Virus record (IMG/VR): IMGVR_UViG_3300045135_000603
Span: 1-26,669 of that record
Direction: 5' to 3' (one strand)
DNA length: 26,669 nt
Origin: a virus
In this document: positions 1 to 26,669 of the stretch, piece after piece
Layout of the letters: each line of letters opens with the position of its first letter
Position numbering within the stretch: position 1 is the stretch's first letter
The notes under the pieces: model-generated
Databases searched by the model: none
What the model was told of the DNA's origin: nothing
Seen by the model: the letters and a program-made list of their open reading frames with translations, nothing else
Translations under genes and position numbers: made by a program

Positions 1-389
1 TCGTTTCTACACAATTTCCAGAAATTGAGAAACAGATTGGAGTTAAACCATTTAAAGGAACAGCATACCCAAAGATTAATGTGTATGAGTGGGATACCAA
101 AGTTGGTGTCATCGCAGAGATTCCAGGACTATCAAAGAAAGACTTGTCAGTAGAGGTTACTGACGGAGTTCTTACAATTAGTGGAGATAAACATAAGTTG
201 TTTGATGTAGGAGATGCTAAAGTAATTCGTAGAGAATTAAAAGAGTCATCTTTTAAAAGACAATTTGAGTTAGGTGAAGAACTTGACGGAGATAATATCA
301 ATGCTAAATTTGAGGACGGTATACTCTCGATTGAGATTCCAAAGGTAGAACCAGAGAAACCAAAAACAAACAAAATAAAAATCTCTTAA
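1..389 (+). CDS. Hsp20 small heat shock protein, 5' truncated
   Basis: The reading frame is open from base 3 to the stop at 387-389, so the gene begins before the window. The GTG at 81 is an internal valine codon, not a convincing start. The visible 128 residues contain the alpha-crystallin domain: a PKINVYEWD segment, then the hallmark AEIPGLSKKDLSVEV and GVLTISGDK strands, and near the end a FEDGILSIEIPK strand. Small heat shock proteins form oligomers that hold unfolding proteins without ATP. Hsp20 genes are common in T4-like phages of marine bacteria, where a role in virion assembly or host proteostasis is presumed. The next gene is a J-domain-like protein, which suggests a small chaperone module. 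The family call is secure. Length and start are unknown because of the window edge. Confidence 0.9.
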   Translation, partial: VSTQFPEIEKQIGVKPFKGTAYPKINVYEWDTKVGVIAEIPGLSKKDLSVEVTDGVLTISGDKHKLFDVGDAKVIRRELKESSFKRQFELGEELDGDNINAKFEDGILSIEIPKVEPEKPKTNKIKIS

Positions 390-420
390 TTTAAATAAGG
401 TTATATCTATTTATAGTTGA

Positions 421-456
421 GGGGTTTTTAAATTCAAGTGGGAAACTTGGTGCCCC
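421..456 (+). promoter_or_regulatory. Hairpin in the leader of the J-domain-like gene
   Basis: GGGG (421-424) can pair with CCCC (453-456), enclosing a second stem CAAGT (435-439)/ACTTG (445-449) with a GGGAA loop. It lies 12 bases upstream of a start codon that has no recognisable Shine-Dalgarno sequence. It could be a terminator remnant for the Hsp20 gene or a translation-control element. Pairing is seen in sequence; function is inferred. Confidence 0.35.
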
Positions 457-468
457 TTGCTATAAATT

Positions 469-1029
469 ATGGATGATTTAATAAAGTTACGACAAAAAAA
501 GATTCGACAAAAACTTCGTTATCTACAATTAGAATTAATGGAAGCGAAGATTATCTACAAGAACTCTTTACAAAAGTTTCACAAAGACTTTTCACAAGAC
601 ATCAAACCAGATAAAGACAATAAAGAAAAGATTGATGTCAAAGACCCATACGAAGAAATACAAACAGAAGTATCAGATGATACAATGAAAAAAGTATATC
701 GCAAGGTAGCTAATAAAGTTCACCCGGACAAAAAGGGTGGAGATAAGAAAAAGTTCCAGATAGCTGCAAAGGCAAAAAAGAATAATGACTTTGGACAATT
801 ATTAGAAATGGCAGATGAGTTAGAAATTGATATAGAGTTATCAAATGAATTGATTGATGAAATGAATAAACAATGTAATGCAGTTGTGAACAACATCAAC
901 ACAATCAAAACAACAACAGCGTGGACTTGGGCACATTGTCAACCACAAGAACGAGAAGGATTACGACAATACATATTAGCCACCATTACCCCACCAAAAG
1001 ATTTAACAGAGGAAAAAACGAAAAACTAA
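469..1029 (+). CDS. J-domain-like protein (DnaJ-type co-chaperone)
   Basis: This 186-residue protein has a basic, coiled-coil-prone N-terminus (about residues 1-35). A J-domain-like core follows: a helix YRKVANKV leads directly into HPD at residues 85-87, then KKGGDKKKFQIAAKA. The HPD tripeptide between two basic helices is the J-domain signature and is what stimulates Hsp70 ATPase activity. Helix III differs from canonical DnaJ and there is no zinc-finger or client-binding domain, so it would be a minimal J protein redirecting host DnaK. The start lacks a Shine-Dalgarno sequence and follows TATAAATTATGGAT, a 14-mer also found at the start of the gene at 2532. It follows the Hsp20 gene on the same strand. 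J-domain assignment is fairly likely; client and role are unknown. Confidence 0.6.
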   Translation: MDDLIKLRQKKIRQKLRYLQLELMEAKIIYKNSLQKFHKDFSQDIKPDKDNKEKIDVKDPYEEIQTEVSDDTMKKVYRKVANKVHPDKKGGDKKKFQIAAKAKKNNDFGQLLEMADELEIDIELSNELIDEMNKQCNAVVNNINTIKTTTAWTWAHCQPQEREGLRQYILATITPPKDLTEEKTKN

Positions 1030-1032
1030 AAT
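1003..1032 (+). promoter_or_regulatory. Possible sigma70-type promoter for the structured RNA
   Basis: TTAACA (1003-1008) and TAAAAT (1027-1032) each match the sigma70 consensus at five of six positions and are 18 bases apart. Transcription would begin near 1039, just before the structured region. In AT-rich DNA such matches arise by chance, so this is tentative. Confidence 0.3.
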
Positions 1033-1370
1033 TGATATCGTAGAGTTTTCATTCCCAAAACTGCTTGGGTTTAATTTTTGCGGAGTTGAGTGAGAGGTTT
1101 GGATGAGCGACCAAACGAAAGTTCTGATGAGAGAGTGTTCATCAGTCACGATAATAAGTTCCGAAGGGAACTTTAGTGATTTACTAAAAAGTCATCAGAA
1201 GATACCCTAACACAAAGGACAGATAATTGCACTATAAGTTAGGCTGGGTTGTAGACCAAAGATGTAGTGTAATACCAAGCAATACTTGATTTGTTCGGTT
1301 GATATAGCAATCGGACAGGTCAGTTTGAAAAAAATGACGGAATAGTGTGCCCGTCTTATACTTATATTAA
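1033..1370 (+). ncRNA. Putative structured RNA, about 330 nt, unidentified
   Basis: This is the largest gene-free stretch in the window. No plausible protein is seen in it. It contains helices dense enough to suggest a folded RNA: 1097-1102/1111-1116 (6 bp); 1122-1130/1192-1200 (9 bp, perfect); 1146-1149/1176-1179 enclosing 1156-1162/1167-1173 (7 bp, GAAG loop); 1227-1234/1265-1272 (8 bp) crossed by 1206-1211/1238-1243 (6 bp), which makes a pseudoknot; 1292-1301/1308-1317 (10 bp with two G-U pairs); and 1336-1340/1351-1355. It lies between two intact genes. It could be an independent trans-acting RNA or a long leader of the gene at 1388. I do not recognise tRNA, tmRNA, RNase P or a complete group I intron. 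The pairing was found by eye and no energy was computed. Confidence 0.55.
1054..1079 (+). terminator. Weak terminator-like hairpin after the J-domain-like gene
   Basis: CCCAA (1054-1058) pairs with TTGGG (1065-1069) around a 6-base loop and is followed by TTTAATTTTTG. The stem is short, so it may instead be the first helix of the structured RNA. Confidence 0.3.
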
Positions 1371-1387
1371 AGGTGGGAGAAAAAATT

Positions 1388-2290
1388 ATGGAAAACTCAA
1401 AATATTTTTATATATGGATTGGATTGTCAGCATTACTTATCGCAGGTAGTGCAGCAGCATTTTCGGTCTATGGATTAGCAAAACTTTTTAGTGGAGCGTT
1501 CTTATCAGTAGTGGTAATGGCAGGTTCATTAGAATTAGGTAAATTAGTTACGGCATCATTTTTATATCGTTATTGGAATGTGATTAATTATTTCCAAAAA
1601 GTTTATATGACGATAGCAACATTGGTATTGATATTCATTACATCAGCAGGTATCTTTGGATATTTGTCAAACGCGTATCAAGGAGCAACATTAGAATTTG
1701 AAAAACAATCTACTGAACTATTAACAATAGAAGAACGAATAGACCAATTAGAAGAAGATAAAGTTTTTCTAAAAGAAGAATTAGAAGTTGCTATATCTGA
1801 ATTACCAGATAACTACATCACAGCAAAAAGAAAGTTGAGAGAGGATTACAATCCACAGATTTTACAAATCAATAATGAGTTGTTGGAATATAAAAAGACA
1901 AGAGCTGATTTAGAAATACAATTAGTATCTACGGGAGTTGATGTTGGACCAGCAATTTATTTGGCAAGAACTTTCGGAACCGACATAGATACCGTAGTTA
2001 AGTTCTTTATCTTTATTCTTATCTTTGTGTTTGACCCGTTAGCAGTTATGTTAGTCATAGCATATAATCAAGCACTATTAGAAAGAAAACCAAAAGAAAA
2101 AACACAACACGAGAATTGGCAAGACATTTATTCACAACCAACATTGATTGAGGATAATGAACGAATGGATATAATTGGTCAGAACGGAAACGACGGATTA
2201 CATTATGATGTAGAACCAGACATAGAACCAGATGATAATAATAATCCAAATCCACAACCAACAGCAAGAGGTGGAATAAGAATAAAATGA
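1388..2290 (+). CDS. Membrane protein with central coiled coil, unknown function
   Basis: The ATG at 1388 is chosen over the in-frame GTG at 1373 because AGGTGGGAG (1371-1379) sits at the right distance as ribosome site. The product is 300 residues. It has hydrophobic segments near residues 5-25, 32-55 and 72-92, a charged coiled coil of about 90 residues (roughly 103-190), a further hydrophobic segment near 205-230 containing FDPLAVMLVIAY, and an acidic, Asn/Pro-rich tail. This reads as a multi-pass inner-membrane protein with a large coiled loop between the third and fourth helices. No enzymatic motif is visible. It directly follows the structured RNA region and may be its regulated target. 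Family unrecognised; the membrane topology is the only firm statement. Confidence 0.75.
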   Translation: MENSKYFYIWIGLSALLIAGSAAAFSVYGLAKLFSGAFLSVVVMAGSLELGKLVTASFLYRYWNVINYFQKVYMTIATLVLIFITSAGIFGYLSNAYQGATLEFEKQSTELLTIEERIDQLEEDKVFLKEELEVAISELPDNYITAKRKLREDYNPQILQINNELLEYKKTRADLEIQLVSTGVDVGPAIYLARTFGTDIDTVVKFFIFILIFVFDPLAVMLVIAYNQALLERKPKEKTQHENWQDIYSQPTLIEDNERMDIIGQNGNDGLHYDVEPDIEPDDNNNPNPQPTARGGIRIK

Positions 2291-2316
2291 TTTTAACTAC
2301 ACAACAGGAGAATACA

Positions 2317-2478
2317 ATGAGTAAGAAGTATGAGTATAAGTCAAAACTATTTAGAAAAGTTCATCAATTACAAAAACGATTGTATCGGACAGAACAAAAT
2401 CCAGGACATTCAGAGGATAAAGTGTGGTTTAGAGAAATGAGAATTAAGAAGTTAATTAATAAAATTAAAGAAAAATAA
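2317..2478 (+). CDS. Small basic protein, unknown
   Basis: A 53-residue protein very rich in Lys and Arg (begins MSKKYEYKSK, ends KLINKIKEK). The start at 2317 is preferred to the in-frame ATG at 2287 because AGGAG lies 7 bases upstream of it; 2287 would overlap the preceding stop and has no ribosome site. The charge would suit nucleic-acid binding, but there is no recognisable domain. It sits in a run of short accessory genes. Confidence 0.6.
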   Translation: MSKKYEYKSKLFRKVHQLQKRLYRTEQNPGHSEDKVWFREMRIKKLINKIKEK

Positions 2479-2487
2479 AAAAAATGC

Positions 2488-2516
2488 TTGACAAACGAAA
2501 AAAAATGTTGTATATT
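2488..2516 (+). promoter_or_regulatory. Sigma70-type promoter, TTGACA-N17-TATATT
   Basis: A perfect -35 hexamer (2488-2493), exact 17-base spacer and a TATATT -10 (2511-2516) lie in the gap before the gene at 2532. The predicted start near 2523 gives a leader of about 9 bases without a Shine-Dalgarno sequence. Its strong consensus suggests recognition by the host housekeeping polymerase, i.e. an early promoter. Confidence 0.75.
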
Positions 2517-2531
2517 AAGGGTATATAAATT

Positions 2532-2762
2532 ATGGATATTAGAGAAATAGTAAAACGATTAGAAACAATAGAAGCTGAAGCTCGTGATAAAAAACAATAT
2601 GAATTAGAGGATTCGGTTGGTAGACTAATTGAGGATATTATTGAAATTGACTTGGAACAAGAAAAAGAGTTCCAAAAAGAAGTATCCAAATATATAGATG
2701 AAAAAATAGAAAAAGAGTTAGTAAGGAGGGCATACGCGTCAGGTTCAATGGCGCAAGCGTAA
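2532..2762 (+). CDS. Small acidic helical protein, unknown
   Basis: A 76-residue protein, strongly charged and predicted mostly alpha-helical with heptad-like spacing (KRLETIEAEARDKK, then a Glu/Lys-rich second half). It is the first gene behind a consensus promoter at 2488-2516 and has a very short leader, so it is probably expressed early. No family recognised. Small, acidic, early phage proteins are often host-takeover or anti-defence factors, but nothing in the sequence shows that here. Confidence 0.65.
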   Translation: MDIREIVKRLETIEAEARDKKQYELEDSVGRLIEDIIEIDLEQEKEFQKEVSKYIDEKIEKELVRRAYASGSMAQA

Positions 2763-2767
2763 AAGAT

Positions 2768-3214
2768 ATGAGTAAGTTTGAAGATAATGGTGGTTATTAC
2801 ATTGACGGAGTTCCTTATATGGATTGTAAATATACTGGAATACCAGTTAAGAATGTAAGTGAAGATGCCACATATGTTATTAGTGATAAAGCGTTACAAT
2901 CAAGAATGTATAAAATGTTTCCAGAGGATTTTGCGGAAAAGACGAAGTATAAACCAACAGGTCGTCCTGCTGGTTGGCACTTTATGAACGAGTTTGTTGA
3001 TAAAGACGGAAATGTTTTTCACAAAGGTAAAGAACAACCTAAACTAAAAGGAACTTTACCACCGACAAAAGTCAAACCAAAAAAGAAAGTCAAAAGAAAA
3101 ACCAAAGATGAAATCTTGGTTGCTCGTCATAAAGAAAAGTTAGCAGTTGAAAGAAAACTAAAAAAAGATTTAGACAAACAAAAAAAATTCCTAATGGGAG
3201 AGGTTGATAAATGA
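2768..3214 (+). CDS. Unknown protein with basic C-terminal half
   Basis: A 148-residue protein. The N-terminal half (about 1-90) is compact and aromatic-rich, with paired motifs of the type DGVPYMDCKYTG and KDGNVFHKGKEQ that could form small beta-hairpins. The C-terminal half is very Lys-rich (a KVKPKKKVKRK patch) and helical, suitable for binding nucleic acid or ribosomes. It starts 5 bases after the previous stop with no clear Shine-Dalgarno site, so it is probably translationally coupled. Not recognised. Confidence 0.65.
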   Translation: MSKFEDNGGYYIDGVPYMDCKYTGIPVKNVSEDATYVISDKALQSRMYKMFPEDFAEKTKYKPTGRPAGWHFMNEFVDKDGNVFHKGKEQPKLKGTLPPTKVKPKKKVKRKTKDEILVARHKEKLAVERKLKKDLDKQKKFLMGEVDK

Positions 3215-3405
3215 TAATGAAAAAAAGATTAGTAATTGGTAAATTACTAAAAGGTGATAAAAGATTAGACGGAGAAACTTTCGTAGAATACAAAGAAAGA
3301 ATGAAATTAGAAAAGTCTTTATTAAAGGATTATCTATCTGGTGTTTGGGTCACCACAGAAGAATTTAGGAATAATAAGCAAAAAACACTTGACAAATTAA
3401 AATAA
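3211..3405 (+). CDS. Small basic protein, unknown
   Basis: A 64-residue, Lys/Leu-rich, probably helical protein. The start overlaps the previous stop (ATGA at 3211-3214) and a GGAGAGG ribosome site precedes it; an alternative ATG lies at 3217. The -35 of the next promoter falls within its last codons. No domain recognised. Confidence 0.6.
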   Translation: MIMKKRLVIGKLLKGDKRLDGETFVEYKERMKLEKSLLKDYLSGVWVTTEEFRNNKQKTLDKLK

Positions 3406-3417
3406 ATAGGTTATATT
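3389..3417 (+). promoter_or_regulatory. Sigma70-type promoter giving a predicted leaderless transcript
   Basis: TTGACA (3389-3394), a 17-base spacer and TATATT (3412-3417) overlap the end of the preceding gene. Only six bases (AAGGTT) separate the -10 from the ATG at 3424, so the expected transcription start coincides with the start codon. Confidence 0.75.
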
Positions 3418-3423
3418 AAGGTT

Positions 3424-4347
3424 ATGAATTTAGGTTATGCGTGTATCAATATGAAGTTGTCGTATCCAAAAAAATATGGATTGGACCAACATAGAATAAC
3501 AATGAACAGAAGTATGATTAAACGAACCTTTGATGAAAAGGGTTTGGATTATACATCTGAATTAGTTATGAAAAATGTTGCAGACTTACATAAGATTATA
3601 CAATGGAACGAAGACAATGGTATCAAGTTCTTTCGTATGTCATCAGAAACATTTCCTTGGGCATCCGAGTATTACAAAGATTGGACACAATTTCCAAACA
3701 TTAGATTTATTCACGCAATGTTATCTGATTGTGGTAAGTTAGCAACTCAATACGGACACAGACTGACTGCTCACCCAGGACCTTTCAATGTATTGGTATC
3801 ACCAAACGAAGATGTAGTTCAGAACACAATCACAGATTTGACTATACACGCAGACATTATGGACTTTATGGGTTTATCAAGAACACCATACAACAAACTC
3901 AACATACATTGTAATGGTGTGTATGGAGATAAACAATCTGCTATGGATAGGTTTTGTAAAAACTTTGAACGACTACCCGAGTCAGTTCAGACAAGACTTA
4001 CCGTAGAGAACGACGATAAAGCATCTATGTATTCAGTAAAAGATTTATACGAGGGTATTCACAAACGAATCGGAATACCAATTGTGTTTGACTACCATCA
4101 TTACAAGTTCAACACCGGAGAACAAACAGAACAAGAAGCATTAGAAATGGCATTATCTACTTGGGGAGATGTAAAACCAGTAGTTCATTATTCAGAAAGT
4201 CGTTCCGTAGAACAATTAGATGAGTCAATCAAACCACAAGCACACTCGGACTTAATTAAAGAATTACCAAATACCTACGGACACGATGTAGATATTATGG
4301 TAGAAGCAAAACACAAAGAATTAGCAATAGAGAGGTTTATAAAATGA
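3424..4347 (+). CDS. uvsE: UV-damage endonuclease, UvdE/UvsE family
   Basis: A 307-residue TIM-barrel endonuclease that nicks DNA 5' to UV photoproducts, starting an alternative excision repair. The family's metal-site motifs are in order: LTAHPGPF with H117, NIHCNG with H162, LTVENDD with E195 and D197, FDYHH with D223 and H225/H226, and VVHYSES with H255. Length matches bacterial UvdE (about 300). It is expressed from its own promoter, apparently leaderless, and its stop overlaps the start of the RimK-like gene (ATGA). A photorepair gene makes sense for a phage of sunlit water. Identification is strong; the exact substrate range is not determinable from sequence. Confidence 0.92.
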   Translation: MNLGYACINMKLSYPKKYGLDQHRITMNRSMIKRTFDEKGLDYTSELVMKNVADLHKIIQWNEDNGIKFFRMSSETFPWASEYYKDWTQFPNIRFIHAMLSDCGKLATQYGHRLTAHPGPFNVLVSPNEDVVQNTITDLTIHADIMDFMGLSRTPYNKLNIHCNGVYGDKQSAMDRFCKNFERLPESVQTRLTVENDDKASMYSVKDLYEGIHKRIGIPIVFDYHHYKFNTGEQTEQEALEMALSTWGDVKPVVHYSESRSVEQLDESIKPQAHSDLIKELPNTYGHDVDIMVEAKHKELAIERFIK

Positions 4348-5237
4348 ATGGTTGGATAATACATAAAAAACAATTAGGAGAAAATCACGAAGTCCAAAGA
4401 CTTGTTGAAGAGTTTGAAAAACGAGGAGTTAAGATTCGTGTAGTTAATCCACAAGATGTAGATATATTTGTTGATAGAGATGATAGAAACTCTATATTGG
4501 TTGAGGGTAAACCAAGAAGACTTCCAGACTTTGTATTACCGAGAACCGGAAGTGGAACAACTTACTTCATCAAAGCAATCATCAGACATATGGAAAGACT
4601 TGGTGTCACGATGATTAACGGAAGTGATGCCATTGACAATGTTAAAGATAAATTATATTCACAACAAATACTTGGACAATCAAATTTACCTTGTCCAAAA
4701 ACTATGTTGGTAAAGCATCCGATTAATGTAAAAATGATAGAGGATAATTTAAGTTATCCAATGATTGTAAAAACTTTAAGTGGTAGTTATGGTAGTGGAG
4801 TGTTTATGGTGGAGAACAGAAAACAATTTGTTCAGATGATGAAAATGGCAGAGATAACTAAACCAAGTTATAATATTATTATACAAGAATGTATAGAAGA
4901 TTCTTTCGGTAAAGACTTACGAGTATTGGTAGTGAATGGTAAAGTTGCAGGTTGTATGATGAGACAATCAGTTGACGGAGACTTTCGTGCAAACTTAACT
5001 CGTGGTGGAGAAGCAATTCCTTATCAAGTTGATGATGACATTGAGTGGATTAGTGGAGAGAGTGCAAGACTTTTAGATTTAGATATAGCAGGAGTTGACT
5101 TGTTATTTAACGGAGATAGTTATACTATTTGTGAGGTTAATTCAGCACCAGGTTTTGAAGGTATGGAAAAATATACCAAGGTAAACATCGCAGAAAAAAT
5201 GGTAGACTATATAATTAAAAAAGTGGGAAGTAAATAG
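4344..5237 (+). CDS. RimK-like ATP-grasp ligase
   Basis: A 297-residue ATP-grasp enzyme. It has a pre-ATP-grasp N-terminal domain (about 1-95), then the nucleotide-binding MIVKTLSGSYGSG (glycine-rich loop at 146-152), FGKDLRVLVVNGK, a FRANLTRGGEA segment, and the metal-binding CEVNSAPGFEGME with E264 and N266. These match RimK-type enzymes, which add glutamate residues to a protein C-terminus (ribosomal protein S6 in Escherichia coli) or ligate amino acids to small acids. The start overlaps the UvdE stop and has an AGAGAGG ribosome site, so the two are translationally coupled. The substrate here is unknown: host S6, a phage protein, or a small molecule. The family call is strong. Confidence 0.88.
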   Translation: MNGWIIHKKQLGENHEVQRLVEEFEKRGVKIRVVNPQDVDIFVDRDDRNSILVEGKPRRLPDFVLPRTGSGTTYFIKAIIRHMERLGVTMINGSDAIDNVKDKLYSQQILGQSNLPCPKTMLVKHPINVKMIEDNLSYPMIVKTLSGSYGSGVFMVENRKQFVQMMKMAEITKPSYNIIIQECIEDSFGKDLRVLVVNGKVAGCMMRQSVDGDFRANLTRGGEAIPYQVDDDIEWISGESARLLDLDIAGVDLLFNGDSYTICEVNSAPGFEGMEKYTKVNIAEKMVDYIIKKVGSK

Positions 5238-5262
5238 TTATTACTATAAAAGGACGGAAACT

Positions 5263-5805: not shown

Positions 5806-5822
5806 TTTTAAAAAATCATCGT

Positions 5823-5831
5823 TATATTTAT
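5823..5831 (+). promoter_or_regulatory. TATATTTAT motif, candidate late promoter
   Basis: This motif lies in a 75-base gap, 49 bases before the glycosyltransferase-like gene. The same 9-mer recurs in four other gene-free positions, always pointing to the following gene. A gp55-like sigma factor is encoded in the window; T4 gp55 recognises an AT-only -10 (TATAAATA) without a -35. Confidence 0.5.
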
Positions 5832-5880
5832 ATATGTAGACGAAATAATTAACAATTGAAAAATACATAGGAGAAGTAAA

Positions 5881-7374: not shown

Positions 7375-7382
7375 GAGTAAAA

Positions 7383-8168
7383 ATGAAACAATTAACAGAA
7401 CAACAAATTACAGATAACTGGAAAGAACTTCGTGGAATAATCAACGATACATTTAGTGGAGAAAGATTAGAAAAACTAAACAAAATGTATGACTTCTTTG
7501 AAGACAGAATGTGTATGGCACCTGCGAGTGGTAAAGCACATTTCCACAACGCAATGGTTGGTGGTTATGTAGAACACATACTACACGTTGTTAAGTTCTC
7601 TCAACAAGTAAGAGATACTTGGGAACAAAATGGTGCCGAGATAAACTTTACAAATGAAGAACTAATCTTTGCAGCACTTCATCACGATTTAGGTAAGATA
7701 GGAGATTTGGAAGAAGACTATTATGTACCGGAAGAATCAGATTGGCATCGTAAGAACCAAGGAAGTATATTTACACACAATCCTAAATTACAATATATGG
7801 TCGTAACGGATAGAGCATTTTATTTATTACAACACTTTGGAATTAAGATGTCGGAGTGGGAATATATTGGATTGATGTTAACTGACGGAATGTATGAAGA
7901 AGCAAACAAAAAGTATTATACAAGTTTTAATCCAGACTTTAGATTAAAATCTAATATCGCATATATCTTACACCAAGCAGATATGATGGCAACACATATC
8001 GAGGGAGACCAATGGAGAAGAGGTGATAAGGTAGAAAGTAAAAAGGTTGAACAATCAGTAAACAAAATAAAACAGGCAGTCGATAATGAAGTAAAAGAAA
8101 AGTTCAATACCAAATCAACAGACGCAAAAGATATATTTAACGAACTATTTGGAGAACCGAAAAAATGA
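7383..8168 (+). CDS. HD-domain phosphohydrolase
   Basis: A 261-residue protein with a full HD metal-binding set: H53/H55 in a HFHNAM segment, GGYVEH (H65), the diagnostic HHDLGK (H100, H101, D102) and a later HQADMM (D200). HD-domain enzymes hydrolyse nucleotides, (p)ppGpp, cyclic nucleotides or RNA ends; the spacing recalls YhaM-type and related small HD proteins. In phages they commonly adjust nucleotide pools, but the substrate here is unknown. AGGAG precedes the start and the end overlaps the next gene by an ATGA. Confidence 0.82.
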   Translation: MKQLTEQQITDNWKELRGIINDTFSGERLEKLNKMYDFFEDRMCMAPASGKAHFHNAMVGGYVEHILHVVKFSQQVRDTWEQNGAEINFTNEELIFAALHHDLGKIGDLEEDYYVPEESDWHRKNQGSIFTHNPKLQYMVVTDRAFYLLQHFGIKMSEWEYIGLMLTDGMYEEANKKYYTSFNPDFRLKSNIAYILHQADMMATHIEGDQWRRGDKVESKKVEQSVNKIKQAVDNEVKEKFNTKSTDAKDIFNELFGEPKK

Positions 8169-9141: not shown

Positions 9142-9171
9142 TAATAGTCCACTAATAGGAGAGAACATAAA

Positions 9172-10215
9172 ATGCTTAAAGTGAATTTATTTCCAAAAAG
9201 CATGATTGACCTTGAGAGTCAACTCAATGAGCTCAAACAAAACGGACGAACAGGAATTCAATTTCCTGCCGATTTTGAAGTTCAAGACGTAGGCCTAAAA
9301 GTTATCAATCGTAACGACATTGTATTTAACAACCCATTAGGACAAATTAGGGTTGGAGACGCAATAGAAAAAAGAGGTAAACGATTAGCATACTCATTTA
9401 GTAATGGAGTAGATTGGTCGGCACCTTTTCCAGTAGTCTTTGAGAAAGATGGTTCCTACTTCCTTGCCGAAGGTTTCGGTAGAGACGCAGGATTTGATAA
9501 TCTTAATCAAGATTGTTGGATATATCAGGTAGTAAAAGTAAAACCCAGACACGAAGTAAAAACAAGATTGTGGTTAAATAGGGATTTACCATCTACACCA
9601 AATACTAAATTAGATATTGTACACGCAGCTATTGAAGATGTGAAAAAGAAATATCTAAAAGTAGGTAAAATGCATTTTACCAAATATGTTAACGACACAA
9701 ATCCCCACGTTTCAGATGCTATGAAAAAGGAGATTGTGGCAACACTTTTGAATAAGTTTAAACATAAACTTCCTAAAAAGTACAATCGTTACACATCTTA
9801 TAAACCAGCAACACTAAAAAGAGATTGGATTGCAAAACATTGGTCAAGTGCCAAAAATTACAATTTTAATCTTACAAATAGTGGTGCTAGGAAAGATGTC
9901 GGTAAATTCTTTACCGCAGCACTTCCGTTCGGATATGAGCATATTAAAATCATAAATGCTATGAAAGACTATGCACGAACAGGTAAGATGACATATTTTA
10001 TTTGTTATGAGATTAATGCTATAACAAGTGAAAAATCATTACGAAACAAAAGAAAGAAGTTTCTTAAAAATGTTGAAGAATTAGTTTCAACATTTGAGAA
10101 ACTATCTAACAATACTTCTGGAAGTGATTTCAGAAAATCGTTCAAAATTTTAGGTTTTATTCCACAAGACCAAAATGAGAACATCAAAGAGTTAGTTAGT
10201 ACAACTAATTTTTAA
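9172..10215 (+). CDS. Orphan protein, weak ParB-like N-terminal patch
   Basis: A 347-residue protein of unknown function with a good AGGAG ribosome site. Residues about 80-120 read APFPVVFEKDGSYFLAEGF then GRDAG, which resembles the strand-helix of ParB/sulfiredoxin-fold domains (hydrophobic strand, then a GFHR-like motif). The rest is basic and helical, with RDWIAKHW and long Lys-rich segments suggestive of nucleic-acid binding. It is sealed off by a strong terminator and stands between the sigma factor and the structural genes. It contains GAGCTC, AGGCCT and CATG, which are rare elsewhere in the window. This hints at separate acquisition, but the evidence is thin. Confidence 0.5.
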   Translation: MLKVNLFPKSMIDLESQLNELKQNGRTGIQFPADFEVQDVGLKVINRNDIVFNNPLGQIRVGDAIEKRGKRLAYSFSNGVDWSAPFPVVFEKDGSYFLAEGFGRDAGFDNLNQDCWIYQVVKVKPRHEVKTRLWLNRDLPSTPNTKLDIVHAAIEDVKKKYLKVGKMHFTKYVNDTNPHVSDAMKKEIVATLLNKFKHKLPKKYNRYTSYKPATLKRDWIAKHWSSAKNYNFNLTNSGARKDVGKFFTAALPFGYEHIKIINAMKDYARTGKMTYFICYEINAITSEKSLRNKRKKFLKNVEELVSTFEKLSNNTSGSDFRKSFKILGFIPQDQNENIKELVSTTNF

Positions 10216-10216
10216 T

Positions 10217-10248: not shown

Positions 10249-10257
10249 AATCCACCT

Positions 10258-10479: not shown

Positions 10480-10505
10480 TTTAGTTTCCCCCTTTAAATG
10501 AACAA

Positions 10506-11018: not shown

Positions 11019-12712
11019 TGGCATGGCATAAACCTAAACCAGCAGACTCTGGTGGTGGTGAGAACACTTCTTTTGACGATGAAGTCATTACAAGGAGTAG
11101 TTTAAAATCCATATCAAAACAAATAGCCACATCACAAGAGTTTTATGAACTTGAAGTGTTTGAGGTAATGGACATTTACAGACGCGATGGGAATCCAAAA
11201 ATAACTACATCTGGTCAAGTCCTTGGTAGATACTTACATTCTGAACAAGGAACAGAAGTTAAAAACTTATTTACATTTACACCACTTAACTCAAATATAT
11301 TACAGCATCCTATCGTAGGTGAATTGTGGTTAGGTGTAAATCTTGAAGGTAAAAGATATTATCTTGCACCAGTCAATGACAATATTGATGAAATAAATTT
11401 TGAAGAATTTGATAAAAGTATTCCTAATGAAAAAGAAGCCAATGTAACTATTAAACCAGAAGACTTCACACTTAATTCAAATAAGGTAGATGAGGATTAT
11501 AAACAGGGTTCATACTTTGAAGATGTCAGTCCTTTAAAACTTACACCGAACGAAGGCGACACTTTAATACACGGGAGATTTGGAAACTCAATTAGACTTG
11601 GTGCTAATCAAAGAGAGGAAACTGAAACTGACACAACCGACTCACCAAATATAAAATTAGTCGCAGGTAATTTAGGAACATTAGAAGAATTAGAAGATGA
11701 TAAAGCATCTATTTATTTAACAACCAATGAATTAGTATTATATCCAGAACCAGCACTAACTAATCTTGGAGATGAATATAGAGACCCACAATTAATTTTA
11801 GATTCAGATAGAATTGTGTTGAATGCTAAAAAAGATGAAATTGGTATCTATTCACAAAACAATATTAATATAAATTCCGAAGACGGAGATGTATTGATAA
11901 AAGGTAATAATAGTGTAGATGTAGAAGTACAAAATAGTACAATAAATTTAAAAGCAATAAAGGGTGGTTCATTAAAAGAAACCTTTAATCCAGACGGAAA
12001 TATTATGCTACCGAAAATGATTGTAGAACGAGCTGGAGATTTAAAACCAATGGTAGAGTTTTTAAAATTAGAAATGTTAGCAATACCAAGTTTAATTTTA
12101 CCACCGGTATTATCAGGTGGAGCACCAAACCTTGCATTTATGGCAGGTATGAAATTAAAGTTTGACCAAATAAAACACATTAAAGAACAAATAGAAAGAT
12201 TCATTAGTTTAGAGTGGTTACCAGAATTTAATTTTGAGTTTGTAGAATTAGATAAAGTATTAGACGAATTAGGACTTCCAGCAGTTCCTGGATTTGATGC
12301 TCTTGGTGGTTTTGAAGGAATACTATCAGACATAGCAGCGGCAAAGGCAAAGGTAGAAGCATTAAAAGCAGCAGCAAGTGCCGCAGTTGATGCTATAAAA
12401 CCAGTTGGAGATAGAGTAAATAAATACATCAGTACAGACCCAGATGAGATTGATGACGACCCAAAAGACTTTTTAGCATTCCTTGATGAATACGAAAGTA
12501 ATCCAGACAATCCACCAATAGATACATCAGACATTAGAGATGTTATTTCAAGTGGACTTTTAAATAGTGGGCCTGAATTAGGTAGATATTTTCAAAATGG
12601 AGGTTCACCAGAATTACAAAATGTCTTAACTGACGCTTTAAAAGCAGAACAAGATGTTCAACAATTAGACCAAGTAATAAAATTAGCAGAAATAAGTAAA
12701 GCAGTAAATTAG
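11018..12712 (+). CDS. Baseplate central spike/hub protein, gp5-like
   Basis: A 564-residue tail-spike type protein. Residues about 40-130 form an OB-fold-like region (YELEVFEVMDIYRRDG through a GELWLGVNLEG segment). DTLIHGRFGNSIRLG (about 186-200) is the segment typical of gp5-type hub proteins in T4-like phages of marine bacteria. Residues about 265-325 (LILDSDRIVLNAK, IGIYSQNNININ, DVLIKG) have the repeating strand pattern of the gp5/VgrG triple-stranded beta-prism needle. No lysozyme domain is seen. The last 230 residues are helical and Ala-rich (AAAKAKVEALKAAASAA) and are not part of the classical spike. It leads the baseplate genes. The role in piercing the outer membrane is inferred from the family. 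Confidence 0.72.
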   Translation: MAWHKPKPADSGGGENTSFDDEVITRSSLKSISKQIATSQEFYELEVFEVMDIYRRDGNPKITTSGQVLGRYLHSEQGTEVKNLFTFTPLNSNILQHPIVGELWLGVNLEGKRYYLAPVNDNIDEINFEEFDKSIPNEKEANVTIKPEDFTLNSNKVDEDYKQGSYFEDVSPLKLTPNEGDTLIHGRFGNSIRLGANQREETETDTTDSPNIKLVAGNLGTLEELEDDKASIYLTTNELVLYPEPALTNLGDEYRDPQLILDSDRIVLNAKKDEIGIYSQNNININSEDGDVLIKGNNSVDVEVQNSTINLKAIKGGSLKETFNPDGNIMLPKMIVERAGDLKPMVEFLKLEMLAIPSLILPPVLSGGAPNLAFMAGMKLKFDQIKHIKEQIERFISLEWLPEFNFEFVELDKVLDELGLPAVPGFDALGGFEGILSDIAAAKAKVEALKAAASAAVDAIKPVGDRVNKYISTDPDEIDDDPKDFLAFLDEYESNPDNPPIDTSDIRDVISSGLLNSGPELGRYFQNGGSPELQNVLTDALKAEQDVQQLDQVIKLAEISKAVN

Positions 12713-12720
12713 GAGTAATA

Positions 12721-13203
12721 ATGAATAAAGATAAATTAAAAAATATAATTGAATTAATTGTTCGTAAAGAAATCAAAAAACAATTAAGTGAGATATTTAT
12801 TAATGACGAAAAAGAAATTAGTTTATCGGAAACAATTTCTAAACCTAAACCTAAAAAGGTTATCAAGAAACCTAAAAAACAATACACTAAAAATGCAGCA
12901 TTAAATGAAGTATTGAACAACACTAAACCATTAGGTAGTCAAGAACAAGAAGACTGGCCAACTTTGGGTGGTGGAGTATTAGGTAGTGATAATATGGCAG
13001 AAGTATTAGGATACGGAGATTTAGGTAAAGGACAGAATAAAGAAAAAGCAAGAGAAATGGCAGCAGTGGACACAATCAAGAAACAAGGTGTTTCAGTAGA
13101 CGCAGTTCCTGAAGGTGTTCAAAACGCATTAACTCGTGATTATTCTGGTTTGATGAAAGCAATAAATAAAAAGAAATCAGGTGAAGGTGGATTTAGACCA
13201 TAA
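12721..13203 (+). CDS. Small tail/baseplate-region protein, unknown
   Basis: A 160-residue protein with a charged helical N-terminus, a Lys/Pro-rich linker (KPKPKKVIKKPKK) and a Gly-rich C-terminal half with a LGGGVLGSDNMAEVLGYGD segment. The layout, flexible linker plus short conserved tail, suits a virion assembly or tape-like connector protein. It has an AGGAG ribosome site, its stop overlaps the gp25-like ATG, and it lies between spike and wedge genes. Not recognised by family. Confidence 0.6.
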   Translation: MNKDKLKNIIELIVRKEIKKQLSEIFINDEKEISLSETISKPKPKKVIKKPKKQYTKNAALNEVLNNTKPLGSQEQEDWPTLGGGVLGSDNMAEVLGYGDLGKGQNKEKAREMAAVDTIKKQGVSVDAVPEGVQNALTRDYSGLMKAINKKKSGEGGFRP

Positions 13204-13610
13204 TGGCAAGAAGCGTAAGAGAAATAGATAGAAATGACGACAAGTATGTTGGAATAAGATTTCCATTGGATTATAGTCCAGAAGGGTTTTTTTACAAAAC
13301 AAAAACTATCTCTGAACAATCAAAGGCAAATTTAAGAAATCTTTTGTTGACAACACCAGGAGAACGAGTGTTTCAGCCAACATTTGGTAGTCAATTAAAA
13401 AATATTATCTTTGAACAAGGTAGTGATATTCCAAATAGAGTTGAAGAAGCTATTCGTTCATCAGTAGATAATTTCTTACCTTATATTAATATTATTAATG
13501 TATTCACTATACAAGATAAAAACAAAGTCAACACACAAATAGAATTTTCAACACCTATAAATCCGGAAACAATTGAAATATTAAACTTTGACTTTAGAAT
13601 TGGAGAGTAA
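13203..13610 (+). CDS. Baseplate wedge protein, gp25-like
   Basis: A 135-residue protein of the gp25 family (T4 gp25 is 132). The hallmark LRNLLLTTPGERVFQPTFGS is present at about residues 47-66, with the conserved glycine-glutamate-arginine turn, followed by an amphipathic helix and a terminal beta-hairpin. In contractile tails gp25 is a lysozyme-like-fold structural subunit that primes sheath polymerisation at the baseplate; it is not an active lysozyme. It is followed after 2 bases by the gp6-like gene, the same order as in T4 and many contractile systems. High confidence. Confidence 0.92.
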   Translation: MARSVREIDRNDDKYVGIRFPLDYSPEGFFYKTKTISEQSKANLRNLLLTTPGERVFQPTFGSQLKNIIFEQGSDIPNRVEEAIRSSVDNFLPYINIINVFTIQDKNKVNTQIEFSTPINPETIEILNFDFRIGE

Positions 13611-13612
13611 TA

Positions 13613-15568
13613 ATGGCCGACTACGGAACATTTAAGAAAAAATTATCAAAAGAAGTAAATTATCTCGGTAGAGATTTTACTGACATTAGAGAAAATCTAA
13701 TTGAGTTTGCAAAAACATATTTCCCTAATTCCTACAATGACTTCAATGAAGCATCACCAGGTATGATGTTTGTTGAAATGGCAGCGTATGTTGGAGATAC
13801 ATTAAATTATTATGTTGATAATCAATTTAGAGAAACATTATTACAACACGCAGAAGAAAGAAAAAATGTTTTAGCGATTGCACAATCATACGGATATAAA
13901 CCAAGATTAGCAACACCAGCAACCGTAGAGTTAACTTTTACAATTGATGTTCCGGCAAAAGCAGTAGGTTCTACATTCCAACCAGATTTAGATTTTGCTG
14001 GAAAAATATCTGCTAACTCTACTATGTTAGCAAACAATGGAACAGAATTTACATTATTAGATGATGTTGATTTTAAAGTATCAAGTTCATTAGATACTAT
14101 GGAAGTAAAAGTATTAGCACCTTCATCAGGTACAGACCCACAAAATTTTAGACTAACTAAAAAAGGTTTAGCAAAATCTGGTGTTAGAGAAGAAGAAACT
14201 TTTACATTTGGTAATGCAAAAGAGTTTGATAAAATTGTTTTATCTAATGAAAAGGTTACATCTATCGTGGATGTTGTTGATAGTGAAAATAACAAATACT
14301 ATGAAGTTCCATTTTTAGCACAAGACACAGTTTTTGAAGATGAAGAAAATACATCACTCAATGACCCAGAGTTATCAGAATTTAAAAACGATACACCTTA
14401 CTTATTAAAACTTATTAAAACAGCAAGACGATTTACAACAAGAGTTCGTGATGACAATAAAATGGAATTACGATTTGGTTCAGGTGTTAGTGATAATGCG
14501 GACGAGGAATTAATTCCAAATCCAGATAATGTTGGTTCAAGATTGGGACTTGGTGTATCAAGATTAGATGAAAGTTTTGACCCAAGTAATTTCTTAAAAA
14601 CACAAACCTTTGGATTAGCACCAAGTAATACAACACTTACCGTAACTTATAATTATGGTGGAGCAGTTGAACATAATGTTCCAGTAAATAGTATTATATC
14701 ATTTAGTAGATTAACTTATACAAATTCAACGACAGGTTTAAATAGTGATACTCTTGATGATGTTAAGGCAAGTATTAGAGTAGTTAACGAAGACCCAGCA
14801 TCAGGTGGAGCATCAACAGAAACAAATACAGAAATTAAATTACAAGCAGCAGCCTACTTTAATTCACAAAATCGTGCCGTAACAAAAGCAGATTATATTA
14901 CAAGAGTTTACTCTTTACCACAAAAATATGGTAATGTGGCAAAAGCATATATTGTTCAAGACGAACAATTAGAAAAAGAACAATTGGTTATTCAAGATGG
15001 AATAGCAAGAAAAATAACACAAGACGAGCAAAATCCATTAGCACTTAATTTGTATTTGTTGGGATATGATGCTAATAAAAATTTAGTTAGACTAAATAAA
15101 GCAGTAAAACAAAATGTTAAAACTTATTTATCACAATATAGATTGTTAACAGACGCTATCAACATTAAAGACGGATATAGAATTAACATTGGTGTAAAGT
15201 ACAACATCATTACTAAACGAGGATATAATAAAAATGATGTCTTGTTTAGAACGATACAAAAAGTAAAAGACTTTTTTAATATAGAAAAATGGCAAATGAA
15301 TCAACCAATAGTTTTGAGTGATTTAGCATATCAGATTTCTACTTGTGAGGGAGTTGTATCATTAGTTCCACCAGAAGCTAATAATCCTAACAAAGAATTA
15401 ATTTTAATTGAGAACAAACATTTACAAAGTGATGGATATAGTGGTAATGTATATGATATGTCATCAGCAACAAAAGACGGAATTGTATATCCATCATTAG
15501 ACCCAAGTATATTTGAATTGAAATTTCCAAATTCAGATATTGAAGCAAGAGTAGTAGGAGATAGATAA
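13613..15568 (+). CDS. Baseplate wedge protein, gp6/gpJ-like
   Basis: A 651-residue baseplate J/gp6 homologue (T4 gp6 is 660). The N-terminus carries the family's dimerisation region: LGRDFTDIRENLIEFAKTYF, then FNEASPGMMFVEMAAYVGD and LNYYVDNQFRETLL. The later AVTKADYITRVYSLPQKYG segment (about residues 422-440) is the J-family core motif. It is the main structural unit of the wedge, joining gp25 and gp7/gp53 equivalents. It is the gene expected after gp25, with a GGAGAG ribosome site. Its stop overlaps the next ATG. Confidence 0.93.
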   Translation: MADYGTFKKKLSKEVNYLGRDFTDIRENLIEFAKTYFPNSYNDFNEASPGMMFVEMAAYVGDTLNYYVDNQFRETLLQHAEERKNVLAIAQSYGYKPRLATPATVELTFTIDVPAKAVGSTFQPDLDFAGKISANSTMLANNGTEFTLLDDVDFKVSSSLDTMEVKVLAPSSGTDPQNFRLTKKGLAKSGVREEETFTFGNAKEFDKIVLSNEKVTSIVDVVDSENNKYYEVPFLAQDTVFEDEENTSLNDPELSEFKNDTPYLLKLIKTARRFTTRVRDDNKMELRFGSGVSDNADEELIPNPDNVGSRLGLGVSRLDESFDPSNFLKTQTFGLAPSNTTLTVTYNYGGAVEHNVPVNSIISFSRLTYTNSTTGLNSDTLDDVKASIRVVNEDPASGGASTETNTEIKLQAAAYFNSQNRAVTKADYITRVYSLPQKYGNVAKAYIVQDEQLEKEQLVIQDGIARKITQDEQNPLALNLYLLGYDANKNLVRLNKAVKQNVKTYLSQYRLLTDAINIKDGYRINIGVKYNIITKRGYNKNDVLFRTIQKVKDFFNIEKWQMNQPIVLSDLAYQISTCEGVVSLVPPEANNPNKELILIENKHLQSDGYSGNVYDMSSATKDGIVYPSLDPSIFELKFPNSDIEARVVGDR

Positions 15569-16728: not shown

Positions 16729-16731
16729 ACA

Positions 16732-17466: not shown

Positions 17467-17477
17467 CAAATAATAAA

Positions 17478-18383
17478 ATGGCAAGAGAATACGGATTTAC
17501 ACAAGAAGAAAGAAATCAATACTTTGACCCAGAAAAAGTTTATAGTAGTTGGGGTAGAGATTTCAATTCAGACTTTTTAGTATTGTATGTTTATGATACT
17601 TCCGGTAATCTTTTAATAAGTAAGATTATGGGACTAAACGAAGTACAACTGGAAAGTGATGGAGATTATGTTGACTTAAATGTTGGACAACACTTACGAG
17701 ATTTAGGATTTCGTGAGGGAGAGTATGATGTTCATTATAAATTTTTAAGACGATTAGCGGGTAGAGAAAGAACTGTATTTGTTGATAAAAAAGGTAAGGT
17801 CTTTGATAAAAATGTAAAAAGATTAGTCATAGACGGAGAAGTAAAATATTTCAAAGATGTCGGAGATGAAACTGACAAAGGGGAAAGAGAAGAAGTATTC
17901 ATTAAAGAAATGAAATACAAACTTGTAGAAACTTCACCGGATAGAAGTGAGTTTATTTTAGAATTAGACGAAAAAATAAACAATGCCGAATATAGAAATG
18001 AGTTTGTTGAAATGGGACAAATGATTGAGTATGAACCAATTGACAAAGACAATAAAGGAACAATCAAGTTTGATTCCAAAGACCCGCATGTATTAGAATT
18101 TGATATTGACCCACAAGATAGAGGTTTTACACAAAATATGGTGGGTGGACAAATTGTTATACCGAGTATGTATAAAATTACAGGTGAAGAGGATACAGAC
18201 AATAGTGATGTACAAACAGATGTTACACTTACTTTACAAGAAAGATTAGAGTCAGGAGACGCAACAGACTTTCTTGATTTATCAACAGAAGAATTAATCG
18301 ATATAATGTTAAACGACCCAGATGAAAATGAAAGAGAATTAGCTGACGGGGCATTACAAGAACGAGCAAACGAACAAAGATAA
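17478..18383 (+). CDS. Baseplate-region protein, unknown
   Basis: A 301-residue acidic protein. The N-terminal 120 residues have beta character (FLVLYVYDTSGNLL, YDVHYKFLRRLAG) and a later part has IEYEPIDKDNKG with several DxDxD-like acidic turns. The last 60 residues are helical and very acidic. No Shine-Dalgarno site is visible before the ATG. Its stop overlaps the start of the 1592-residue gene (TAATG), so both are likely made together. Probably the partner or chaperone-type subunit of that protein, by position only. Confidence 0.6.
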   Translation: MAREYGFTQEERNQYFDPEKVYSSWGRDFNSDFLVLYVYDTSGNLLISKIMGLNEVQLESDGDYVDLNVGQHLRDLGFREGEYDVHYKFLRRLAGRERTVFVDKKGKVFDKNVKRLVIDGEVKYFKDVGDETDKGEREEVFIKEMKYKLVETSPDRSEFILELDEKINNAEYRNEFVEMGQMIEYEPIDKDNKGTIKFDSKDPHVLEFDIDPQDRGFTQNMVGGQIVIPSMYKITGEEDTDNSDVQTDVTLTLQERLESGDATDFLDLSTEELIDIMLNDPDENERELADGALQERANEQR

Positions 18384-23161: not shown

Positions 23162-23184
23162 ACTAATGGAAAATTTAACTTTCT

Positions 23185-23193
23185 TATATTTAT
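23185..23193 (+). promoter_or_regulatory. TATATTTAT motif, candidate late promoter
   Basis: It lies in the 77-base gap after the giant gene, 45 bases before the ATG at 23239, and so could start a separate high-level transcript for the three fibre-type genes. Confidence 0.5.
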
Positions 23194-23238
23194 TAATGAA
23201 AAAGAATAGTTATATCATTTCCACAGGAGTAAAATAAA

Positions 23239-23922: not shown

Positions 23923-23932
23923 GGAGTAAGTA

Positions 23933-24955: not shown

Positions 24956-24964
24956 GACAATCTA

Positions 24965-25954
24965 ATGTTCAAAAATCTTGATTTAGACAATGACGCTACA
25001 ATAAAAGCATTTCAGTCTTTTAAAAACTTTACATTTACAAATAATGATAGTGGTAGTGGTGTATTCGCAATCAAGGCTCGTAGTGGTTCACGATTTAATT
25101 ATGTGAGTTCATCAGACGAAATTGTAACGATTACGAGTGCATCCACATCTACTAATTTTTTTGGTTATCCAACATACACAATGTTACATAATCTTTATTA
25201 TTCGGACCACGGAAAATCTTATGTAAATGAAGAAAGACAAAATCGTGAATTACATAATTCAGCATCAGTCATAAGTGTTGCGAGAGAATTGTATGGTGAG
25301 AAAATAAAACCATTAAGTATAGAATTATCTGCTACGGTAGGTGGACAAACTTTTGAAATACGAGATGACGGAGAGGGTAATTTATATGATAATAACTTTT
25401 CTTCAAGTTTTGTAACTCACAAATCAAACAACTTTACAAGTGGTAGTTCAACTACTGCGGCAACTCGTGGTAGTGGTTCAGAAGTAGGGAACATATTTTA
25501 CGAACAAGGACTATTAGTATTCACAGATACAGGTTCTTATAAAGATGTAGGATTTGGAACATCATACACATTAAAATATAAAGCAACACAAACTCATTAT
25601 CAATACGAGTATCAAGTAAGAGTTAAACCACACGAGTTTAATTCCACAACAAATATCAGTATTACACCAGGTCGTAGTGGTAGTATCACAATGGCAGAGG
25701 GAGTTGTCAGTATGTCTAATTACTTTGGACCAAGTGACCAACCAACAGGACAAGGGACAGGTAGTTATGCTACATTTTACAACGCAGCAACTGAATCTAT
25801 TGGTATTGTAACCGAATCTACTTTCCGACCATTTGTTACAGACATTGGTTTATATAGTGAAAATAATGAACTATTAGTTCACGGAAAACTCGCAAAACCT
25901 ATCAAATTATCTGACGATATTGAAACTTCATTTATCGTTAGGTTCGATGTATAA
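24965..25954 (+). CDS. Tail-fibre-like structural protein, paralogue B
   Basis: A 329-residue, Ser/Thr/Asn-rich, beta-rich protein. Residues about 80-110 (SVISVARELYGEKIKPLSIEL) introduce a central domain with FEIRDDGEGNLYD, seen in phage fibre proteins that carry repeated ligand-facing units. The end, FVTDIGLYSENNELLVHGKL then AKPI, aligns with the end of paralogue A. It follows A by 9 bases with a GGAC weak ribosome site. It is likely to be in the same virion structure as A, or an alternative of it. Confidence 0.6.
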   Translation: MFKNLDLDNDATIKAFQSFKNFTFTNNDSGSGVFAIKARSGSRFNYVSSSDEIVTITSASTSTNFFGYPTYTMLHNLYYSDHGKSYVNEERQNRELHNSASVISVARELYGEKIKPLSIELSATVGGQTFEIRDDGEGNLYDNNFSSSFVTHKSNNFTSGSSTTAATRGSGSEVGNIFYEQGLLVFTDTGSYKDVGFGTSYTLKYKATQTHYQYEYQVRVKPHEFNSTTNISITPGRSGSITMAEGVVSMSNYFGPSDQPTGQGTGSYATFYNAATESIGIVTESTFRPFVTDIGLYSENNELLVHGKLAKPIKLSDDIETSFIVRFDV

Positions 25955-25967
25955 TATTCTTTCATCT

Positions 25968-25976
25968 TATATTTAT
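25968..25976 (+). promoter_or_regulatory. TATATTTAT motif, candidate late promoter
   Basis: It lies in the 50-base gap before the secreted-protein gene, 28 bases from its ATG. It is the fifth occurrence of the motif in the window. Confidence 0.5.
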
Positions 25977-26004
25977 TATTGACTAAAACTCAACGGAGAA
26001 AACA

Positions 26005-26669
26005 ATGTTTCAGTTTATGAAAAAAATGGTTATGTCAGCAGTTATGTTTGGACTTGTCTTTGCACAATCCCCAATCATAAGAGTAAAACAATTAGGTAAT
26101 TGGGATACCCCACAAATGTGGTGGAAAGATTCCGTTACACAAGATTTAGATGACTTTTTAGCACAAGACACCGACAATCAAGCATTTGATAATAATAACT
26201 TTGATAGTTGGAGAGATAAAGTCTTGGAAATGGAAGTTACATTAGACGATGTGGGAGAAGATATTACCACATTAAGATTTGATATTGCCTTTGATAATGA
26301 CTTAATCACTTGGGTAGAATCAGGTGAAACATCAATCAACGCTTGGAGTCAAGGAGATTCCAAAGTTGTTAAAGGTAGTCATATATCAGGTTGGACTGAA
26401 GGTGATGAATCATCAGGAGCAGACTACTCGTTTGAAGTAGTTCATTATGCAAATGTTGGTTATCAAGACTCGTTAGCAGTCGGTTCATCTACGACATTAG
26501 TAGAAGAATCAATATCCGATACAAGATATGATTGGTTAAGAGTTACTATGGTATCACACGGAGTTGATGCCGATAATGACGGAACACCAGACAAAACATT
26601 TGGTGGTGGTAATGGAGTAGAAAAACAAGTAATAAAGTTTTTCTTTAAAATAAATGATGTTGTTGATGA
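26005..26669 (+). CDS. Secreted cohesin-like protein, 3' truncated
   Basis: The frame opens at ATG 26005 after a GGAG ribosome site and remains open to the window end (221 codons, no stop), so the gene continues beyond. The N-terminus is a classical signal peptide: two lysines (residues 6-7), a hydrophobic core and a predicted cut after VFA (residue 20). The mature part begins QSPIIRVKQL. Residues about 70-110 (MEVTLDDVGEDITTLRFDI, then a DNDLITWVE stretch) resemble the cohesin-type beta-sandwich opening. A later DADNDGTPD (about 190-198) is a calcium-loop-like pattern as in dockerin and thrombospondin-3 repeats. Few phage proteins of tail regions carry cleavable signals. The fold call is tentative; secretion is fairly secure. 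Confidence 0.7.
   Translation, partial: MFQFMKKMVMSAVMFGLVFAQSPIIRVKQLGNWDTPQMWWKDSVTQDLDDFLAQDTDNQAFDNNNFDSWRDKVLEMEVTLDDVGEDITTLRFDIAFDNDLITWVESGETSINAWSQGDSKVVKGSHISGWTEGDESSGADYSFEVVHYANVGYQDSLAVGSSTTLVEESISDTRYDWLRVTMVSHGVDADNDGTPDKTFGGGNGVEKQVIKFFFKINDVVD

Follow-up and report, generated by a model that had tools for sequence, protein, structure and literature searches.

Avoidance of restriction sites in viral genomes has been surveyed by Rusinov et al. (2018, PMC6286503), who report that it is almost confined to the sites of orthodox type II enzymes and that roughly one viral genome in ten shows it in full or nearly in full. In the same survey GATC, as a DpnI-type site, fell below expectation in 46 of 46 phages whose hosts have such enzymes. 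Here we describe the avoidance of GATC in a 26,669-base stretch of DNA from an IMG/VR virus record (IMGVR_UViG_3300045135_000603; the whole stretch is called the window), which represents the baseplate region of a T4-like phage not yet cultured, and in the clade to which this phage belongs.

Tetranucleotides were counted in the window and are given throughout as observed/expected, with expectations for the window taken from a second-order Markov model unless stated. GATC, being a palindrome, is counted on both strands at once; between positions 1 and 26669 it did not occur, against 91.4 sites expected from the Markov model and 77.2 from base composition. The first-pass annotation, which had been made by reading the sequence, was therefore right both in reporting GATC as absent and in putting the number expected from base composition at about 70–80. 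It had further cited eight Asp-Pro or Asp-Gln pairs as examples of avoidance. All eight were found to be written GAC followed by C, at 643, 7306, 12437, 18315, 19463, 19487, 3484 and 12164, at most 6 bases from the positions it gave; they include Asp-Pro as GAC CCA at 643..648 and 12437..12442 (both + strand), and Asp-Gln as GAC CAA at 3484, within a UV-damage endonuclease gene.

Codon choice was examined in 25 predicted window genes, chosen by hand from the list of open reading frames (ORFs). Asp was encoded GAC in all 44 cases before a codon starting with C, as had been claimed, whereas before A, G or T it was GAT in 368 of 553. Ile after G was never ATC (0 of 69; 85 of 454 elsewhere), and Ser after xGA was never TCN (0 of 16; 381 of 594 for Ser overall). 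The same genes were then put through 300 synonymous shuffles, in which codons were swapped among equal residues pooled over the window so that both protein and codon usage were kept. Shuffled genes held 73.4 GATC on average (sd 6.5, minimum 58) versus none in the real genes, while AATT (279 observed versus 357 expected), TGCA (49 versus 100) and TTAA (246 versus 284) showed milder shortfalls. The gap between zero and the shuffle minimum, together with the codon biases, shows that GATC has been lost under selection, by way of silent choices in all three phases, and that its avoidance goes beyond anything that protein sequence and codon usage would produce by themselves.

To place the window, its T4-type wedge genes were used. 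A gp25-like baseplate wedge subunit (13203..13610, + strand; phrog_261, E 1.4e-15) and a gp6-like baseplate wedge protein (13613..15568, + strand; phrog_219, E 1e-22, and phrog_6, E 3.2e-22) adjoin at 13203–15568, an arrangement that marks a T4-like myovirus, and gp6 served as the marker for finding relatives and building trees. A DNA search of a phage collection with window bases 1–25,000 gave no near match; at the protein level gp6 was 46% identical to its counterpart in Microcystis phage Mel-JY01, and it also matched an uncultured phage of 484 kb at 41.5% and Flavobacterium phage immuto at 40%. The phage probably comes from the sea and its clade is probably marine, although habitat words (marine, freshwater, sea) are used here on our own presumption, from metagenome numbers, the names of metagenome-assembled genomes (MAGs) and the hosts known for those relatives that have names.

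Examination of relatives, which the first-pass annotation had proposed, revealed near-total loss. The best 80 of 422 gp6 relatives in IMG/VR carried GATC at 1/2393 in 749,654 bases, and 160 clade sequences (1.57 Mb) carried 1/5237. This set of 160 comprised the window, most loci of the gp6 search and some longer pieces, with six overlapping loci removed; it keeps some near-identical contigs and predates the G370-type lineages described below. A gp6 tree was built from 400 of 401 proteins entered, with overlapping or re-fetched loci omitted, as was L083 (a stretch of the 484-kb phage, GATC 238/220). GATC fell below a tenth of expectation in 159 of the 400 rows, and 153 of these formed one clade with the window (support 100; GATC 2/4813). 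GATC was moderately depleted in its sister clade of 81 rows too (1201/2995); the six remaining GATC-poor rows were L084 (Mel-JY01), L096, L097, L099, L155 and L410. Nine metagenomes, picked by hand from contig names, hold both clades, and in these GATC stood at 1/811 in the window's clade and 177/569 in the sister.

A second marker, an SbcC-like replication gene by our own reading (labelled gp46), gave 26 loci, many on longer contigs. GATC was absent from G370 (0/310), G432 (0/306), G431 (0/276), G430 (0/211), G420 (0/203), G001 (0/200), G434 (0/159), G018 (0/142) and G371 (0/139), and nearly so from G422 (3/314) and G421 (1/144). G423 (51/260), G425 (67/228), G427 (59/240) and G424 (24/131) carried it at 18–29% of expectation. 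On a careful gp6 tree G424 and G427 were placed within the GATC-poor clade (26 rows 99/99; group of six 100/99), and the GATC-bearing groups fall within an 18-row gp46 clade (100/100); the gp6 clade of 153 had been pure because lineages of the G423, G424, G425 and G427 type were not yet in it. GATC in these nested lineages is most simply a regain. Repeated elimination would be a less simple account, some forks in the trees being open. Outside the clade, the G429 group was also low (G429 19/254; L499–L502 6–7 of 85–104, with CATG 0). Avoidance of GATC is known as a phenomenon, and a literature search with partial coverage listed, among the titles and abstract openings shown, none naming its loss in such a clade. 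The present case, near-absolute, clade-wide and with the site partly regained by nested lineages, is unusual in depth and reach and adds a strong new example.

GATC was not the only palindrome affected. CATG stood at 3/69.9 in the window, at 9201..9204, 11022..11025 and 18087..18090, exactly the three places at which it had earlier been noticed as rare. The window was also short of CTAG (1/50), ACGT (6/57), TCGA (12/48) and GTAC (23/78), while AATT, TTAA, CCGG and GGCC lay close to the Markov expectation. The earlier description, synonymous selection against one tetranucleotide, thus stands as to synonymous selection and fails as to "one", since five more palindromes are depleted. The 160-sequence set gave CATG 71/3903, CTAG 473/3312, ACGT 424/2732, CGCG 75/328, GTAC 973/4246, TCGA 1145/2715 and GCGC 216/356; the eight most depleted 4-mers there (expectation at least 200) were all palindromes, and the lowest non-palindromic 4-mer stood at 0.66.

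Depletion of these other palindromes shifts between lineages INDEPENDENTLY. CTAG is mostly retained in the L253 group (L286 28/37) and almost lost in the window; GTAC was 0/37 in L292 versus 13/42 in L031; G370 retains GTAC (270/296) and has lost ACGT (2/101), of which the related G432 keeps 61/115. CATG was found at 45/263 in G370, 133/237 in G430 and 213/325 in G422, and because it varies in this way among GATC-free lineages, loss of GATC alone is common to them. In Mel-JY01 (L084 and L085; 98 of 190 kb counted) GATC was 0/182 and CTAG 0/88, and among its relatives small groups have lost GATC (L096, L097, L099), ACGT (L104–L111) or GTAC (L098, L100, L139). This mosaic suggests that several specificities were met by different lineages, as changing restriction repertoires would bring about.

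Some further counts were recorded alongside. ACGT was 0 in each of the eight loci L104–L111, where each expectation is small, and GTAC was 0/17, 1/24 and 1/51 in L098, L100 and L139; GATC in these two groups lay at about half to normal level. The sister-clade contigs L408, L409 and L411 had GTAC at 0/23, 1/34 and 0/24, with GATC at about half of expectation. Synechococcus phages L435–L437 and L458 had CCGG at 0/7, 1/20, 0/13 and 0/16, with AGCT low and GATC mostly kept. An immuto-like contig, L224 (IMGVR_UViG_3300046779_001504, 4,552 bases), held CpG at 7/123 and 95 GpC, and a COG0863 DNA methylase is annotated in Mel-JY01 (L085 15922–16704).

We consider it likely that the hosts of this T4-like clade have long carried GATC-cutting enzymes and that the loss is restriction-site avoidance. 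Selection against GATC is evident from the counts; its agent would be a host type II restriction enzyme, cutting either unmethylated GATC (MboI/DpnII/Sau3AI type) or adenine-methylated GATC (DpnI type). An infecting genome with GATC would be at risk of cutting, and mutations creating the site would be purged, mostly at no expense to the proteins, since Asp, Ile and Ser each have synonymous codons to choose from; other enzymes may act on CATG, CTAG, ACGT, GTAC and TCGA. Restriction pressure fits the synonymous route, the wide reach across the clade and the weaker loss in same-sample sisters and nested lineages, and is supported by the level of 0.18–0.29 of expectation in the latter, which relaxed pressure would predict. 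The loss also has the features of type II site avoidance, with observed/expected below 0.1 (window 0/91; clade 1/5237), an excess beyond codon usage, and short palindromes as its targets. From this pattern, and from the general avoidance by phages of orthodox type II sites and DpnI-type GATC reported in PMC6286503, we infer a host enzyme. The first-pass reading that hosts carry a GATC-cutting system is accordingly supported in part, by the selection seen (synonymous, clade-wide, weaker in sisters and nested lineages); the enzyme and its type (MboI-like or DpnI-like) are proposed.

Hosts were sought through binned genomes and protein matches. Seven gp6 relatives lay in binned genomes, of which the closest, L251 and L253 (both 63%), have labels that disagree (Gammaproteobacteria, Flavobacteriaceae) and are possibly misbinned. 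A putative outer-membrane protein of G001, by our own reading, had matches in 140 of 199 genomes from the phylum that includes MAG TMED198, which we suspect to be the SAR406/Marinimicrobia group; its 15 strongest matches (E 3.5e-22 to 4.0e-18) were all in genomes of 0.7–1.0 Mb. In the phylum of the Flavobacteriaceae MAG the same protein gave weaker matches, 20 of 148 genomes reaching E 1e-8 and none going below 2e-11. PF02086 methylases were seen in 2 of 19 genomes, and PF04556 in 0 of the 7 binned genomes with a gp6 relative. Other results weigh against a host restriction enzyme as the cause. The search for a host and cognate enzyme yielded neither, the sole host hint being that one protein at about 32% identity, and none of 199 genomes in the TMED198 phylum had a match to a second phage protein. 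GATC enzymes were rare there, with DpnII-family genes in 4 of 245 genomes and DpnI-family genes above the cut-off in 5 of 245, and eight stretches (about 119 kb) from seven small genomes of this candidate phylum carried GATC at 357/455, with no avoidance. Moreover, the loss is more uniform, over a broad clade, than the patchy pattern expected of mobile restriction–modification (R–M) systems.

Two kinds of locus were noted in small genomes. On the minus strand of L450 (4900–9612; genome G159, 0.9 Mb) two D12 methylases adjoin, next to three ORFs of 160, 244 and 533 amino acids without a Pfam match, and the locus looks R–M-like. L481 (1495–1938) and L482 (1492–1935), from two small genomes, each hold a short DpnI-family gene (147 amino acids) beside a putative transporter-like gene in the same neighbourhood.

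Other causes of the loss were weighed against a host restriction enzyme. That it reflects mutational or compositional bias, or a library or assembly artefact such as GATC-cut DNA, could be entertained because several contigs are short and codon usage is skewed; this idea is largely refuted and hardly credible, since synonymous shuffling, with protein and codon usage held constant, left at least 58 GATC every time, palindromes are singled out among 4-mers, and sister contigs from the nine shared metagenomes carry GATC, which rules out an artefact of the libraries. Avoidance of methyl-directed mismatch repair, for which GATC is the strand-discrimination site, has been proposed for phiX174, which is described as wholly without GATC and as mutating at a lower rate when sites are restored (PMC5014478). 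For the present phages it would leave the depletion of CATG, CTAG, ACGT, GTAC and TCGA unexplained and is very improbable. To our knowledge, MutH-type repair is also known only from some Gammaproteobacteria, which may count against it further. Somewhat less remote, but still improbable, is a phage-borne cause in which a Dam-family methylase makes G6mATC and the sites are purged since DpnI-type hosts cut them or methylation harms the phage. The first-pass annotation had seen no dam-like methylase in the window, and scans of 23 of its 25 genes with PHROGs or Pfam found none, but four GATC-free related IMG/VR contigs do encode a D12/Dam-family methylase. In G001 it is a D12-class adenine methylase (697–1590; PF02086, E 1.3e-27), with M.DpnII as the closest chain of solved structure (E 5.7e-8), that misses the NCBIfam dam cut-off (TIGR00571, 58.6 versus 114.85 bits); its structure model (pLDDT 37) was too poor for use. 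In the three contigs holding both genes it lies 11–17 kb upstream of a small heat-shock protein (sHSP) gene. That all four contigs have 0 GATC, and that a few genomes of the candidate host phylum have the DpnI-family genes given above, favour such a cause. Its GATC specificity, however, is putative, it was not found in the whole records of GATC-free G370 (81 kb) and G432 (82 kb), both partial genomes, and homologues at 51–55% identity (four of 300 matched records) occur in cyanophages and one uncultured phage that retain GATC (S-PM2 74/119 and 277/284, S-SCSM2R 144/189, S-P4 90/91, LR756502 101/199). The methylase does not track GATC loss and was therefore set aside as a general cause of it.

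Self-imposed avoidance was the other phage-encoded cause considered, and overall such a cause is possible but weak. A phage GATC-specific HNH nuclease would destroy host or rival DNA, a genome without the site would need no protective methylase, and GATC in nested lineages would mark loss of the nuclease; a second, lineage-limited nuclease could then lie behind the loss of CATG. We regard this as unlikely, if slightly less so than the methylase. The nuclease in question would be a conserved HNH protein of 161–169 amino acids, encoded at G001 6528–7013 some 8 kb upstream of the sHSP gene; its structure model (pLDDT 52) was too poor for use. A search of 22 contigs or stretches found this candidate in seven, all with 0 GATC (G001, G018, G370, G371, G430, G432, L432), and not in the sister records G021 (all 125,608 bases) and G019 (97,848 of 101,285). 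Its conservation is good, at 74–92% identity when five rows are compared with the first. There is also a precedent in chlorovirus PBCV-1, reported to encode restriction systems for GATC and CATG (PMC7248222), the two most depleted sites of the 160-sequence set. No match was obtained in eight GATC-free or nearly free sequences (G420, G421, G422, G431, G434, L251, L253 and the window), where gene order indicates that its place was probably not reached, or in GATC-bearing G423, G424, G425 and G427, where that place may lie outside the contigs. Its absence from G424 and G427 had been read as gene loss, which was withdrawn as gene order differs there. Against the nuclease, the HNH gene tracks clade membership, as many other genes do. 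Relatives at 37–40% identity, in three of 57 phage records found, sit beside GATC at 442/391, 235/228 and 116/114, with no avoidance, and three distant IMG/VR relatives beside 124/103, 32/34 and 4/33 (the last L463). Since its pattern is common to many genes and five of these six stretches have normal GATC, the HNH protein is a lead only.

The remaining genes of the window assigned by family matches all lie on the + strand. The window opens with the 5'-cut Hsp20 sHSP gene (3..389; phrog_432, E 6.3e-20), followed by UvdE, the UV-damage endonuclease mentioned above (3424..4347; PF03851, E 6.5e-63; TIGR00629), a RimK-like ATP-grasp ligase (4344..5237; PF08443, E 1.2e-48) and a metal-dependent phosphohydrolase (7383..8168; phrog_28876, E 2.2e-11). 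No integrase was among the families matched in scans of the window and related contigs, the genomes being partial and the gene scan incomplete. Genes with signal-peptide-like starts form a run at window 26005–26667 and at G001 41304–48077, several of them, by our reading, ending in FAQ or FGQ; scanned members had no match to known families, and a 949-amino-acid protein in the G001 run resembles the window's last ORF by eye. G001 1587–5164 (in L086) holds genes for a carbamoyltransferase, a UDP-glucose dehydrogenase and a putative GroES-like protein.

With its near-absolute loss, partial return in nested lineages and differing sets of palindromes, the clade is a natural experiment in which restriction selection can be studied without culture. 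If mutation–selection equilibrium is assumed, 1/5237 would correspond to a scaled selection of about 7–9 per site, and the set of avoided palindromes may serve as a fingerprint for locating hosts. Proximity-ligation or cloning work based on GATC cutters (DpnII, MboI, Sau3AI) would miss these phages.

Among known systems, Mel-JY01 (PP395634) is alike in its gp6 (46% identical) and in having no GATC in 98 of 190 kb; it differs in having no CTAG either, CATG moderately reduced and ACGT normal, and the gp6 tree places it separately from the clade that holds the window. phiX174 (PMC5014478) likewise has zero GATC, but it is an E. coli phage with a mismatch-repair explanation in which we assume GATC alone to be affected, whereas the window is from a T4-like phage and CATG, CTAG, ACGT, GTAC and TCGA are depleted as well. 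PBCV-1, with its reported GATC and CATG R–M systems (PMC7248222), shares the same two tetranucleotides; chlorovirus-type R–M keeps and methylates the sites, while here they have been removed (CATG not in every lineage) and the HNH nuclease is a candidate only. Restriction avoidance in the non-temperate dsDNA phages of PMC6286503 is alike in that palindromic type II sites, GATC among them, are almost completely lost; the present case differs in that, with the host enzyme inferred, it extends over more than 150 uncultured contigs and shows loss and probable regain on trees.

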